Positions 4,210-63,203 of a stretch of DNA of 64,000 nt are shown one piece after another (the stretch's first letter is position 1; every line of letters starts with the position of its first letter). Source of the stretch: Chloroflexota bacterium (GTDB taxonomy: Bacteria; Chloroflexota; UBA6077; CF-72); the NCBI GenBank assembly GCA_016191465.1, contig JACPOP010000015.1:124001-188000 (forward strand), written 5' to 3'. The position numbers and the translations under genes are program-made. Below the pieces are notes generated by a model that saw nothing but the letters and a program-made list of their open reading frames with translations, was not told the DNA's origin and did no database searches.

Positions 4210-4370
4210 GTCAGGAGACCGAGGACGGCTCGGTCTATTCGACGGGGAGGCGCGCACACACCCTGAAGCGTGCGAGCGCTGCTCGCACGTGAGGAGCAGT
4301 TGTGGAACTTGCCGCCAGGGCACGCAACAGCCGGGGCCGCCAACGCCGTGACGGAGAAGATCCGAGGCGG
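4210..4370 (+). pseudogene. decayed partial duplicate of the dgt upstream/5' coding region
   Basis: Shares GTCAGGAGACCGAGGACGG (4210-4228 = 5185-5203) and CGCAACAGCCGGGGCCGCCAACG (4323-4345 = 5393-5415) with the dgt 5' region. Across frames it encodes EARTHPEACER / LLAREEQL / ARARNSRGRQRRDGEDP, resembling Dgt EARSHPEVCERLLAREEQLSKFAAKARNSRGRQRPDVEDP. Confidence 0.75.
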
Positions 4371-5266: not shown

Positions 5267-6412
5267 ATGGCCTCCGCACCTGGTATCCCTCGGGCACCGA
5301 GTCCCTTCGACTGGGAGGCCCGCTCGCACCCGGAAGTGTGCGAGCGGCTCCTTGCGCGCGAGGAGCAGCTCTCGAAGTTCGCCGCGAAGGCGCGCAACAG
5401 CCGGGGCCGCCAACGTCCAGACGTGGAAGATCCCATGCGGACCGCCTTTCAGCGCGACCGCGACCGGATCATTCATTCGAAGGCGTTCCGGCGCCTGAAG
5501 CACAAGACCCAGGTGTTCATCGCCCCGCTGGGAGATCACTACCGCACCCGCCTCACGCACACCATGGAGGTGATGCAGGTGGCGCGCTCCATCGCCCGTG
5601 GACTGAACCTGAACGAGGACCTCGCTGAAGCCACCGCCCTCGGGCACGACCTCGGGCACACCCCGTTCGGGCATGCTGGCGAGACGGCGCTGGGCGAGCT
5701 GCTGCCCTGGGGGTTCCGCCATAACGAGCAGAGCGTGCGCGTGGTGGAGGTGCTGGAAAAAGGCGGCGAAGGGTTGAACCTGACCCAGGAGGTGCGCGAT
5801 GGCATCCTGAAGCATTCCAAGCTGCGGGACAGCATCGCCGCCGAAGGGTGGGGCATCGCCAACACCCTCGAAGGCCAGATCGTCAAGATCGCCGATAGCC
5901 TCGCCTATCTGAACCACGACATCGACGATGCGATCCGAGCCGGGATCATCTCCATCGCGGACCTGCCGCGGCATGCGAACGAGGCGTTCGGCACCACCTC
6001 CGGCTCGCGGATCACCGCGTTCGTTACCGACGTGGTGGACTACAACTGGCGCGTCGCTACGAATGAGGGGAGCACGTGGCAGGAGGCGATTGGTAACGGG
6101 ACGGCGGTGGGTATGAGTCCCGCCGTCCTGGCGGTAGTAGACGAGCTTCGGGAATTCATGTTCAGCCGGGTGTACACAGACTCGGCCGCGAAAGAAGATG
6201 ACCCCAAGACGCACTTCGTGATGCGCTGCCTGTATGAGCACTTCACCAGCCATCCCGAGGAGATGCCCGACGAGTGGGCGCGGAACCCGCGTCAGGAGCC
6301 GATTGAGCGGCGCGTCGCGGACTACATCGCCGGAATGACGGACCGCTACGCGGTGCAGGCCTTCGAGTCGATCTACGTCCCGAAGCAGTGGATCGCACTC
6401 GGCGGCCGCTGA
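5267..6412 (+). CDS. dgt: deoxyguanosinetriphosphate triphosphohydrolase-like protein (HD domain)
   Basis: NSRGRQRPDVEDPMRTAFQRDRDRIIHSKAFRRLKHKTQVF...DHYRTRLTHTMEVMQVAR...ATALGHDLGHTPFGHAGE. Confidence 0.95.
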   Translation: MASAPGIPRAPSPFDWEARSHPEVCERLLAREEQLSKFAAKARNSRGRQRPDVEDPMRTAFQRDRDRIIHSKAFRRLKHKTQVFIAPLGDHYRTRLTHTMEVMQVARSIARGLNLNEDLAEATALGHDLGHTPFGHAGETALGELLPWGFRHNEQSVRVVEVLEKGGEGLNLTQEVRDGILKHSKLRDSIAAEGWGIANTLEGQIVKIADSLAYLNHDIDDAIRAGIISIADLPRHANEAFGTTSGSRITAFVTDVVDYNWRVATNEGSTWQEAIGNGTAVGMSPAVLAVVDELREFMFSRVYTDSAAKEDDPKTHFVMRCLYEHFTSHPEEMPDEWARNPRQEPIERRVADYIAGMTDRYAVQAFESIYVPKQWIALGGR

Positions 6413-34528: not shown

Positions 34529-36223
34529 TCAGACGCGAGAAAACGCGGCTGCCTCGCCCCACACCTGTCGAAACACGTCAGAAATCTCTCCCAGCGTACA
34601 CAGCGACTCAACAGCCTCCACGATGATGGGCATAACGTTCTCGTTTGCGTCGCGAGCGGCAGAATCGAGGCGGCCAAGGATCTCATGACAACGGACCTGG
34701 TCGCGCCGTTCTCGGAGCAGTCTTAGCCGCTCCGATTGCTGCTCGCGAACCAGTGGGTCGACGACCAGGATGTCGGCAACAGGCTCTGGCTGGGTGCTCT
34801 GGAATTGATTGAGGCCAACGATGATGCGCTTACGCTCCTCGATCTCCCGCTGATAGCGGTAGGCGGCCTCTTGAATCTCCCCCTGAATGTAGCCCTGTTC
34901 CACGGCGGAAAGCGCTCCGCCGAGGCTGTCGATACGCTCGATGTACTCCCAGGCTCGACGCTCCACCTCGTCCGTAAGCGATTCGACGTAATAGGAGCCC
35001 CCGAGCGGGTCCACGACCTCGGCCACTCCGCTCTCGTAGGCGAGGACTTGCTGTGTGCGGAGTGCTACCTGCGCGGTCTCCGCGGTTGGCAGCGCCAGGG
35101 CTTCATCCTTCGCGTTGGTGTGCAGCGACTGGGTGCCGCCGAGGATCGCCGCCAGCGCCTGGACGGTCACGCGAGCGACGTTGTTGTCGATCTGCTGGGC
35201 CATCAGCGTCACCCCCGCCGTCTGGGTATGAAATCGCAGTATCCAGGAGCGAGGGTCCTGGGCGTGGAAGCGCTCCTTCATGATCCGCGCCCACATGCGA
35301 CGGGCCGCACGGAACTTCGCCACCTCTTCAAACAGGTCATTGTGACTGTCAAAGAAGAAGCTCAAGCGAGAGGCGAAGGCGTCGACTTCCAGGCCAGCTT
35401 CCATCGCGGCCCGCACGTATTCGATCCCGTTCGCCAGGGTGAACGCCAGCTCCTGGACCGCCGTGGCGCCTGCTTCGCGCATGTGGTAGCCGCTAATGGA
35501 GATCGTGTTCCAGCGCGGAATTTCACGGCCGCAGTACGCGAAAAGGTCGGTGATCAGGCGCATGCTGGGGCGTGGCGGGTAGATGTACGTGCCGCGGGCG
35601 ATGTACTCCTTCAGGATGTCGTTCTGGACCGTACCACTGATCGCGCGCGGGCTCACCCCCTGCCGCCGGGCAATGGCGACGTACAGGGCCAGCAGGATCG
35701 GCGCGGTGGCGTTGATGGTCATGCTGGTGGTCACCCGGTCGAGGGGAATGCCTTCCAGCAGGGTCTGCATGTCCTCGACGGAGCAGATGGAGACGCCCAC
35801 CTTGCCCACCTCGCCTTCGGCGAGCGGATGGTCGGCGTCGTAGCCCATCTGAGTCGGCAGGTCGAAGGCGACGGAGAGGCCAGTCTGCCCCCGCTCCAGC
35901 AGGTACCGGTAGCGCTGATTGGATTCCTGGGCGGTGGCGAAGCCGGCGTACTGGCGCATGGTCCAGAGACGCCCCCGGTACATGGTGGGCTGGATACCGC
36001 GGGTGAACGGGAGCTCGCCCGGGAAGCCCAGGCGCTCCATCTCATCCCAGCCCCGACTCGCCAGGTCCTCCGACGTGTAGAGGGGACGCCGCGAGATCTC
36101 GGACGTCGTCTCGAACAAGGTATCCCGCTCCGGCGAACCTTCGATCGCGCGCTTGAGCGTCGTATCCCGCCATTCGCGGGCGGTGCGCGACGCGCCACGG
36201 CGACTCCCTTCAGGGGGCGTCAC
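34529..36223 (-). CDS. methylmalonyl-CoA mutase family large (catalytic) subunit, Y/R-type
   Basis: [85 protein letters not shown]; no cobalamin domain. Confidence 0.93.
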
Positions 36224-37498: not shown

Positions 37499-38014
37499 CT
37501 ACTCCAATACGACCAGGACCTGGCCCTGCTCGACCGTCTGGCCCGGTTCCACGCCAACGTGCTGGACGACTCCGTCGTGGGGCAGTGAAAGCTCGTTTTC
37601 CATTTTCATAGCTTGAAGGACGATCAACGGCTGGGCCTTGTGGGTGGCCTCGCCAGGCTGCACCAGGACCTTCACGACGAGCCCCGGCATGGGCGCCTTC
37701 AACTCGCGTTTGGCCGTTCCGACCGAGCTGGCGCCGGCCAGTTTCGCCAGGCGGGCACGGGCCTCGTCGACCACCACGGCGTCACAGGCGGCCCCACCGA
37801 CAACCATCTGAGTCTCCTCTCCGGTGCGGCGCAACATGACCTCGATGGTGCGCTCTCCCAGCCTCAGCGCGTACAGCGGCCCACGCACCTGATCGAGGCG
37901 GGCGCGCCGCTCCTGCGAATCACCGATCCGAACCAGGTGCTCCTCTCCCTCTCGACGGATGTGTACCACCTGGGTCTCACCGTCGATCGTCACGCTGAAG
38001 GCTCGCTCCGTCAC
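37499..38014 (-). CDS. biotin/lipoyl-attachment (biotin carboxyl carrier) protein
   Basis: C-terminal KAPMPGLVVKVLVQPGEATHKAQPLIVLQAMKMENELSLPHDGVVQHVGVEPGQTVEQGQVLVVLE; GTG start at 38014 inferred. Confidence 0.9.
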   Translation of the reverse strand: MTERAFSVTIDGETQVVHIRREGEEHLVRIGDSQERRARLDQVRGPLYALRLGERTIEVMLRRTGEETQMVVGGAACDAVVVDEARARLAKLAGASSVGTAKRELKAPMPGLVVKVLVQPGEATHKAQPLIVLQAMKMENELSLPHDGVVQHVGVEPGQTVEQGQVLVVLE

Positions 38015-38020
38015 GGGCTG

Positions 38021-38174
38021 CTCGAGGGTCGTTTGGCACGCCGCTCGGCCATGTCGCGGCGCCCACTCCCGGGTACGGGCGGGGGAAGGAAGATTCTCGG
38101 GCGGGGGCGCGGAGCGCCCCCGCCGATGCCCGGCGCCGGTGGAATGGCGCGAGTCGAGGCGAACGACCCTCGAG
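38021..38174 (+). repeat. MITE/REP-like structured element, copy 1
   Basis: Termini CTCGAGGGTCGTTTGGC (38021-38037) and GGCGAACGACCCTCGAG (38158-38174), inverted with 2 mismatches; internal hairpin GGCGGGGGCGC-gga-GCGCCCCCGCC; second copy at 62258-62425. Confidence 0.8.
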
Positions 38175-38303: not shown

Positions 38304-39824
<1,521 letters not shown>

Positions 39825-43803: not shown

Positions 43804-45392
<1,589 letters not shown>

Positions 45393-45510: not shown

Positions 45511-45683
45511 CCGGAGTCCGAGAGCGGCGCTCCACCGGGCGCGCCGTTCGGCGCCGGGGAGTCTGAGGGCGCATCCCTCAGCGGGGTGGTGGGGCGGAGC
45601 GCCACCTTTGATCCAGAGAACTTCTCTCCTCCCCCGCCCGCGACAGGCAGAAGGCCCGGGGGTGGGACGACTTTGCGCTGCAC
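45511..45683 (-). repeat. interspersed repeat family 2, copy A
   Basis: AGTCTGAGGGC...CTCAGCGGGGTGGTGGGGCGGAGCGCCACCTTTGATCCAGAGAACTTCTCTCCTCCCCC shared with 60848-60954. Confidence 0.75.
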
Positions 45684-60749: not shown

Positions 60750-60960
60750 GCAACGCACCGTCGCCGGGAGCCTGAGGGGGCTCCAACCGGCACGAGTCTG
60801 AGGGTCGGCAGGCCTTCCGTAGGCGCCAGCGCGAGTCGCTCTGCCAGCCGGGAGTCTGAGGGCTGTGCGCTCAGCGGGGTGGTGGGGCGGAGCCCCACCT
60901 TTGATCCAAAGAACCTCACCTCCCCCCACGCGCGAAAGGGAGGCCGGGGGTGGGCCGGCG
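60750..60960 (-). repeat. interspersed repeat family 2, copy B
   Basis: Shares GGGAGTCTGAGGGC...CTCAGCGGGGTGGTGGGGCGGAGC(C/G)CCACCTTTGATCCA(A/G)AGAAC with 45556-45666. Confidence 0.75.
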
Positions 60961-61080: not shown

Positions 61081-61190
61081 AAAATGGAGCCTGTCGTGCG
61101 GCGCTCCCGCTGCACTGGCGGCGCCGATCCTTCTACCTTTTGATCGCGTCCGATCGCGCCGGGGCAGGGTCCTACAAGGAGACATGCGAA

Positions 61191-62261
61191 GTGGCTGGAG
61201 CCGACAAGAGCAAGGCGATCGACATCGTCGTCATGAACATCGAGAAGCAGTTCGGGAAGGGCGCCATCATGAAGCTGGGCGAGGCCCAGCAGCGGATGGC
61301 GGTGGACATCATCCCGACCGGGTCTATCAACCTGGACATCGCGCTGGGTGTGGGGGGCGTCCCGCGTGGGCGGGTCACCGAAATTTTCGGCCCCGAGTCT
61401 TCGGGGAAGACGACGATCGTCCAGCACATCATTGCCGAGGCTCAGAAGACTGGCGGCGTGTGCGCCATCATCGACGCCGAGCACGCACTCGATCCGGAGT
61501 ACGCCAAGAAGTGCGGCGTGGACGTGGAGAACCTGTTCATCTCGCAGCCGGATTCAGGTGAGCAGGCGCTCGAGATTGCCGAGGCCCTGGTGCGGTCCGC
61601 CGCGTTCGACGTGGTGGCCGTGGACTCGGTGGCCGCGCTCGTACCGCGGGCCGAGCTCGAAGGCGAGATGGGCGACAGCCACGTCGGCCTCCAGGCCCGG
61701 CTCATGTCGCAGGCGCTTCGGAAGCTCACCGGCGTGGTGAGCCGCAGCCACACCTCGCTCATCTTCACCAACCAGTTGCGGGAGAAGGTCGGCGTGATGT
61801 TCGGCAGCCCCGAGACAACGCCAGGCGGCCGGGCGCTCAAGTTCTACTGCTCGGTCCGTCTTGACGTCCGCCGCATCGACTCGGTGAAGCAGGGCACGGA
61901 AATCGTGGGCAGCCGGGTCAAGGTGAAGGTTGTCAAGAACAAGGTGGCGGCCCCGTTCCGCCTCGCGGAGTTCGACATCCTCTACAACGAGGGCATCTCC
62001 AAGGAGGGTGGCCTGCTCGACCTGGGGGTGGAGCTGGGCTTCATCAAGAAGGCCGGCGCCTTCTTTTCGTACGGCGAGCAGCGCATCGGCCAGGGCCGAG
62101 AGAACGCCCGCGAATACCTGAAGAAGAACCCGCAGATGACGCAGGAAATCGAGGCGCAGGTCCGAAGGCAGATGCTGGCGGGTCCAAGCAAGATCGAGAT
62201 GCCCGAGCCGAATGGGCAGGTAGAGCTCGAAGGCGTCGAGGACCTCGCGCCCAGCTTCTAG
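61191..62261 (+). CDS. recA: recombinase RecA
   Basis: GTG start with AAGGAG upstream; [25 protein letters not shown]...[32 protein letters not shown]. Confidence 0.97.
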
Positions 62262-62425
62262 TGGGTCGTTTGGCACGCTGTGCAGCATTCCCGGGGTACC
62301 CACCCCCTCGCCCCCTCCCGTGCGCGGAAGGGGGAAGTGTTCTTTCCCGGAGGGGGCGCGCCGCGCCCCCTCCGACTCCCTGCGCTCCGGTGGAATAGCC
62401 CAATGCAAGGCGAACGACCCACTAG
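62258..62425 (+). repeat. MITE/REP-like structured element, copy 2
   Basis: Termini CTAGTGGGTCGTTTGGC (62258-62274) and GGCGAACGACCCACTAG (62409-62425); internal hairpin GGAGGGGGCGCG / CGCGCCCCCTCC; same architecture as 38021-38174. Confidence 0.8.
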
Positions 62426-62474
62426 CTGGTCCGCCGGGCGTGCCACTGGCACGCCCGGCGGAGCCTGACCGCGT

Positions 62475-63203
62475 ATGCCATTCCGCGCCACAGCACGGCG
62501 GACGTTCACGCGCACCGCAGCCGGGCGTAGCGTCACCGAACAACAACCCGCCGCGCCGCGCGAGCCTGTCGAGGGGCGCATCACCGCCATCCAGCCGCAG
62601 GAGCGCCGTGGCGGCCGGCGCTTCAATGTGTTTGTGGAGGGCGCGTTTGCCTTCGCCCTTGCCGACGACATCGCCGCGCGACTCCGCGTGGGCGAGCAGC
62701 TCTCACGTCCCGCGGCAGATGCGCTCCTGGAGCAGGATGACCTGCGGATCGCCGTTGAGACGGCGGTGAGCTTTCTGGGACCCCGTCCCCGGAGCGAGCG
62801 CGAGATCCGCCAGCGGCTCGCCCGCCGCGCCACGCCACCGGGCGTGGTCGACGCGGCGCTCGTGAAGCTCCGCGAGCACGGCCTCGTGGACGACGAGGCA
62901 TTCGCCCGCTACTGGGTGGAGCAGCGCCAGACGTTTCGCCCGCGCGGTGCTCGCTTGCTGAAGGCAGAGCTCCGCCAGAAGGGGATCGACGTGGAGGTGG
63001 CCGACGGCGCCGTGGGCGTCACCGAGGAGACGGCTGACGACGATGCCTACCGCTCAGCAGTGAAGAAGGCGCGTCAACTCTCCGGCCTTGACGAGCGCAC
63101 GTTCAAGACCCGTCTCGGCCAGTTCCTCGCCCGCCGCGGCTTTGGATGGGACGTGATCCAACCCGCCGCGCAGCGACTGTGGCGCGAGCAGAGCGACGCC
63201 TGA
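62475..63203 (+). CDS. recX: regulatory protein RecX
   Basis: AVSFLGPRPRSEREIRQRLARRATPPGVVDAALVKLREHGLVDDEAFARYWVEQRQTFRPRGARLLKAELRQKGID. Confidence 0.9.
   Translation: MPFRATARRTFTRTAAGRSVTEQQPAAPREPVEGRITAIQPQERRGGRRFNVFVEGAFAFALADDIAARLRVGEQLSRPAADALLEQDDLRIAVETAVSFLGPRPRSEREIRQRLARRATPPGVVDAALVKLREHGLVDDEAFARYWVEQRQTFRPRGARLLKAELRQKGIDVEVADGAVGVTEETADDDAYRSAVKKARQLSGLDERTFKTRLGQFLARRGFGWDVIQPAAQRLWREQSDA

Follow-up and report, generated by a model that had tools for sequence, protein, structure and literature searches.

Why do accC and the gene for the biotin-carrier protein (BCCP), neighbours on the minus strand, lie 289 nt apart in this genome, when their counterparts in relatives are spaced by 5, 9 and 10 nt? 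The relatives compared are three genomes (G001, G002 and G003) from the same family but another genus, with 50–80% protein identity. The interval consists of a palindromic element, here called c1, and about 130 nt of other sequence. A first-pass annotation of the window, i.e. the whole stretch of 64,000 nucleotides that was analysed (C9:124001-188000), had taken c1 for a copy of a dispersed MITE/REP-like element, and this description holds: the element has terminal inverted repeats (TIRs), copies throughout the genome and element-free sites in relatives. The best explanation, with a probability of roughly 0.78, is a non-autonomous, MITE-like imperfect palindrome of 97–170 bp that encodes no protein, has 34-bp TIRs and a variable, GC-rich hairpin interior, and, in this lineage, has reached 14 or more intergenic sites by transposition.

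Two models underlie the search for further copies: R1, a covariance model from nine aligned copies, and R2, a sequence model of the 34-bp end. The genome-wide covariance-model search that the first-pass annotation had suggested was productive. At least 14 copies occur in the assembly (2.15 Mb in 34 contigs; 78% complete, 4.8% contamination reported), all of them intergenic: nine are full-length (154–170 bp) and at least five are shortened (about 97–124 bp; Table 1). A putative sixth short copy at C31:363596 is unconfirmed and lies outside this count. The R1 E-values of the nine full-length copies range from 2e-20 to 3e-41 in the genome search, scores that are high in part because these copies built the model; the BLAST matches are the independent evidence. 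With c1 as the BLAST query three copies were found in the genome, few because c1 is divergent (63–73% identical to the others), and a consensus-like copy together with covariance models gave the remainder. The second copy claimed for the window, c2, is likewise real and full-length. It forms a subfamily with c4–c8 (86–93% identity); the remaining three, c1, c3 and c9, are older copies or have diverged.

Table 1. Element copies, their parts and adjoining genes. Positions are those of the window unless a contig is named; scores in bits refer to models R1 and R2.
Feature	Position	Strand	Context	Evidence
Copy c1, full length, 154 bp	38021..38174 (C9:162021)	+	between accC and BCCP gene	R1 117 bits, E 2.3e-24 (window), E 7.7e-23 (genome)
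c1 left TIR, first bases CTCGAGGGTC	38021..38054	+		R2 18.7 bits; alignment of 22 ends
c1 right TIR	38141..38174	-		R2 23.4 bits
c1 inner hairpin I	38061..38085	+	CCC...GGG module, common to another repeat family (family B)	RNAalifold consensus; module present in family B copies
c1 inner hairpin II, GGCGGGGGCGC/GCGCCCCCGCC	38100..38124	+	one compensatory pair relative to other copies	RNAalifold consensus, covariation test
BCCP gene	37499..38014	-	GTG start 38014	Pfam Biotin_lipoyl 1.5e-18
Copy c2, full length, 168 bp	62258..62425 (C9:186258)	+	between recA and recX; left CTAG holds recA TAG stop (62259-62261)	R1 200.5 bits
c2 left TIR	62258..62291	+		R2 31.6 bits
c2 right TIR	62392..62425	-		R2 28.0 bits
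c2 inner hairpin I	62311..62334	+		folding, RNAalifold consensus
c2 inner hairpin II, CGGAGGGGGCGC/GCGCCCCCTCCG	62348..62374	+		folding, RNAalifold consensus
recA gene	61140..62261	+	TAG stop common to c2 terminus	
Copy c3, full length	C31:295804		end bears stop of nuoC	R1
Copy c4, full length	C31:320061		ends bear stops of glcF and murJ (two sides)	R1
Copy c5, full length	C8:84776		end bears stop of RskA-like anti-sigma factor gene (TAA)	R1
Copy c6, full length	C8:247107			R1
Copy c7, full length	C31:155647	-	end bears stop of DUF3090 gene	R1
Copy c8, full length	C1:69352		end bears stop of PrpD-like protein gene	R1
Copy c9, full length	C9:402647			R1
Short derivative s1	C9:344596			
Short derivative s2	C5:7918-8038	-		
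Short derivative s3	C2:73544		end bears stop of hypothetical gene	
Short derivative s4	C20:50644			
Short derivative s5	C5:201343			
Tenth copy, a chimera	C31:196734-196854		element left end joined to second repeat family	

The chimeric tenth copy suggests modular exchange of hairpins. The window also harbours other repeats. A second dispersed palindromic family, GGGAGTCTGAGGGC...GTGGGGCGGAGCCCCACCTTTGATCCAAAGAA...CTCCCCC...GGGAGGCCGGGGGTGGG, is found at 45557-45634 and 60850-60960 (85% identical over 78 nt), with more copies on contig C8; it has a CCCACCCCC-GCCCCCTCCCG hairpin module in common with the element studied here. The segments 34970-35980 and 44247-45257, 71–77% identical over about 1 kb, are probably paralogues, the first lying within a methylmalonyl-CoA mutase-like gene (34529-36223). 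A direct repeat of 60 nt (83% identical) occurs at 4311-4370 and 5381-5440, 1070 nt apart.

Both ends of the element carry one and the same 34-bp TIR, CTAGTGGGTCGTTTGGCACGCnnTGCGCCATTCC. When the right ends are reverse-complemented and set beside the left ends, the 22 ends of eleven copies can be aligned in 34 columns, with one internal gap in one end. R2 alone recovers the copies as facing pairs about 100–170 bp apart, i.e. with TIRs at both ends, as in a MITE. The interior of full copies is formed by two GC-rich hairpins, and the short copies lack part or all of them. The inverted-repeat termini first noticed in c1 are correct in both coordinates and sequence: of the 17 positions of the opening CTCGAGGGTCGTTTGGC and the closing GGCGAACGACCCTCGAG, 15 are paired. 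The c1 end pattern, with up to three mismatches allowed, is matched three times in the window, where 0.40 matches would be expected; none of 100 shuffles did as well.

The same ends define where the element stops. In thirteen copies, the outer five TIR bases give 47 inverted matches out of 65, compared with 39.3 when ends are shuffled between copies (P = 0.004), and positions 6–12 give 23 of 91 against 26.5, which is chance level. The boundary is sharp at CTAGT, since matching drops to chance beyond the outer five bases; compared base by base across thirteen copies, flank similarity is at chance from the first base outside the TIR. Direct repeats of 2–6 bp do not exceed shuffles at any boundary of the thirteen copies, and the target duplication typical of a MITE was not detected. 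The outermost TCGA of c1 had been proposed as such a duplication, a proposal that is not supported: palindromic TCGA and CTAG are ambiguous, as they resemble direct repeats in any case, and outer ends that are not palindromic are inverted, not direct, namely CTAAT/ATTAG in c5 and CCCGT/ACGGG in s4. A TCGA, CTAG or TA duplication as a general feature is rejected by the boundary comparison of the thirteen copies.

Four loci that are occupied here are element-free in the same-family relatives: accC-BCCP, nuoC-nuoD, glcF-murJ and recA-recX. The spacing of nuoC and nuoD is 14 nt in G001 and 6 nt in G002, as opposed to 201 nt in this genome, where c3 separates the two. The convergent glcF and murJ have about 46 nt between their stops in G003, a gap that c4 fills here, and c2 intervenes at the recA-recX junction. 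Empty sites in relatives, which the first-pass annotation had made a test of its proposal, do therefore exist, all in comparisons with another genus. Elsewhere in the class, 28 genomes searched with R1 were free of copies, as were, at E <= 1e-6 with stricter filters, a further 300 from the phylum. Exact patterns gave no copy in GTDB contigs, a collection from which records near the source genome may be missing, and none turned up in phages and plasmids (blastn) or in IMG/VR (pattern). The literature searched contains precedents for REPs and for template switching, and no description of the element family. Among the genomes searched, the family is found solely in this one and is lineage-restricted.

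Several other explanations need to be weighed against a transposed MITE-like palindrome. A fortuitous resemblance among GC-rich hairpins, as a genome of high GC content might produce, has a probability close to nil. Base composition is indeed extreme and some partial matches cover the inner hairpins alone, but the less GC-rich 34-bp ends suffice to find copies; the R1 genome search, the R2 end search and the empty 300-genome search refute it. A structured RNA element at gene 3' ends (an mRNA stabiliser, or a processing or attenuation hairpin), kept by selection on its fold, is unlikely, even though the sites lie downstream of genes and inside operons and the outer five bases are more complementary within copies than between them. 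On the strand tested c1 folds strongly (-102.9 kcal/mol; z = -5.3 against dinucleotide shuffles, and -5.5 for c2), a strength that any long palindrome would give. Over 29 pairs, five are changed on both sides compared with 1.5 in shuffled columns (1 in 500). The compensatory pair noticed earlier between the internal stems of c1 and c2 is genuine: in the GC-rich inner stem a C-G pair replaces A-U, with c1 as the sole carrier among nine copies. Of the selection for structure that had been read into it, the excess of covariation over shuffles stands; the signal is modest, comes from nine related sequences, and could be caused by selection or by replication template switching, which makes and mends compensatory pairs without selection on RNA (PMC8794818). 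Further points against an RNA element are the mixed orientation (c1 runs against its genes, and c4 is flanked by convergent ones), the same operons without the element in relatives, shortened copies devoid of inner hairpins, and the invariance of most stem pairs. A known Rfam RNA family is rejected, as neither c1 nor c2 has a match above the gathering score (best sub-threshold match 23.3 vs 80 bits).

A bidirectional intrinsic transcription terminator would fit GC-rich hairpins placed immediately after stops, and c4 between convergent genes, but is very improbable. The scan for T-run terminators gave none in the c1 region and a single match near c2, inside recA on the opposite strand; with GC hairpins but no T-run in either c1 or c2, an intrinsic terminator is rejected. 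Moreover, copies sit inside nuoC-nuoD and accC-BCCP, adjacent pairs in the relatives examined. It is also doubtful that the element is a repeat of the REP/BIME type and owes its movement to a RAYT (Y1 tyrosine transposase). Like GTAG-tagged REPs and BIMEs, it is palindromic, intergenic, mostly located after genes and without coding capacity or a detected target duplication, and its termini give TAG stops, as GTAG REPs often do for flanking ORFs (PMC3733652). Unlike them, it is 97–170 bp long and bounded on each side by a 34-bp TIR rather than forming a hairpin of 20–40 bp, and its CTAGT...ACTAG ends contain a CTAG-like tetranucleotide paired within the TIR, not an unpaired GTAG (or CGTC). No associated RAYT was found either: the one RAYT/Y1 transposase gene detected in the incomplete assembly (PF01797, C12:5918) is on a possibly contaminating contig with no R1 or R2 match, and its flanking repeats are unrelated by inspection. 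Mobilisation by this gene is rejected on these grounds. The region C12:3000-9500, where the RAYT gene is embedded in GCCCGCTTCAGCGGGC-type repeats and has unlike neighbours, appears foreign to this genome, and the contig looks like contamination of the assembly.

Bacterial MITEs of the Correia, RUP and ERIC/IRU type are non-autonomous, about 100–170 bp long and intergenic, with TIRs, hairpins and deletion derivatives. The element resembles these in being non-autonomous, in its TIRs and hairpin folding, in its dispersal between genes and in its shortened derivatives. Correia and RUP insertions make TA duplications; in contrast, neither a duplication nor an IS with matching ends was detected for the element. 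Mycobacterial MIRUs are small repeats at stop/start junctions in operons, inserted at TGA/ATGA sites with reading frames kept functional. The present element also inserts at stop/start junctions inside operons and leaves functional frames, but MIRUs are shorter, not similarly palindromic, use TGA/ATGA sites and are unrelated in sequence. As a moderately abundant TIR family it is further comparable to the TIRYT repeats, which flank tyrosine transposase genes (PMC3733652), an association not found here. The name MITE-like is preferred for an element that has no detected duplication and that differs from REPs in size, tag and RAYT. The family is new, being undescribed in the resources searched, and is best filed as a lineage-restricted MITE/REP-like palindromic family.

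In seven elements, a total of eight ends include, in frame, the stop codon of the gene next to them, which is TAG seven times and TAA once. By comparison with relatives, the stops of recA, murJ and DUF3090 are at the native C-terminus. RecA ends at the same residue in relatives (...ATF or ...ETF before the stop, vs ...PSF here), with recX homology directly after it, and the DUF3090 stop is TAG in all three relatives, within CTAG in two. In G003 (contig C401), a different palindromic repeat, CCCTCTCCC...GGGAGAGGG, directly follows the DUF3090 stop, the same stop that carries c7 here. NuoC and GlcF are slightly longer than in relatives, and the element may therefore supply the stop in these two cases. 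With TGA as the RecA stop and TAA as the NuoC stop in relatives, these two loci give no evidence of a pre-existing CTAG target.

CTAG itself is depleted about ten-fold in the window (17 observed, 190 expected), and 4 of the 17 sites coincide with stops, that of recA included. CTAG-like targeting plus removal of gene-breaking insertions would by itself predict about a third of survivors at stops. The observed 7 of 14 elements is not clearly more, and a specific preference for stop codons is not proven. A tentative variant holds that these are TIR elements without target duplication that land on stop codons (CTAG/TAG), the ends being both a transposase-binding repeat and the host gene's stop, and that they are moved by a putative recombinase.

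For the preferred MITE-like palindrome, an enzyme acting in trans would recognise the 34-bp ends and insert the element at short TA-containing sites, presumably of the CTAG type, with no detectable target duplication. The terminal TAG, or that of the target, would keep or replace the stop of the upstream gene, which would make insertion at a gene's 3' end close to harmless. Movement itself is what we infer from the observed family and its ends, the element-free relatives, the absence of detectable target duplications and the coincidence with stop codons, because the searches for Y1 genes and for TIR pairs gave no transposase with matching ends, and no empty and occupied site from the same species was found. 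The first-pass annotation had looked to such a transposase; in the R2 search of the 78%-complete assembly, no pair of facing TIRs encloses a gene.

At the locus that raised the question, c1 ends 6 nt before the BCCP GTG, in keeping with the boundary just upstream of this start that had been described before; the Biotin_lipoyl domain confirms the biotin carrier. The gene is on the minus strand, so that the 'left' end of c1 is proximal to BCCP, and accC, on the same strand, has its stop at 38304 on the other side. The BCCP reading frame is open through c1 back to 38278, but relatives begin at the equivalent of 38014, which makes this GTG the likely start. Part of the BCCP 5' leader (...CCCTCGAG-CAGCCC-GTG) comes from c1, which also does away with the tight packing against accC. 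Given the spacings cited at the outset, loss of translational coupling may reasonably be inferred for accC-BCCP, and likewise for the other operons that copies split (nuoC-nuoD, recA-recX). Beside c2, RecX (62475-63203) has about 85 N-terminal residues for which tblastn gave no match in any of the three same-family relatives. Two elements, c2 on its right (62428-62464) and s3 on its left, directly adjoin almost perfect GC hairpins whose stems comprise 15 to 18 pairs or more; a stem of at least 12 pairs occurred in 0 of 300 random 70-mers from the window.

The family provides a clear, testable case of how a repeat may colonise a gene-dense genome cheaply: CTAG sites are rare but often stops, and an element that lands on them would bring or keep a stop codon. 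Its copies also split core-gene operons (nuo, acc and recA-recX) by 150–170 bp in place of the 5–20 nt spacers of relatives, which amounts to a natural experiment on translational coupling.
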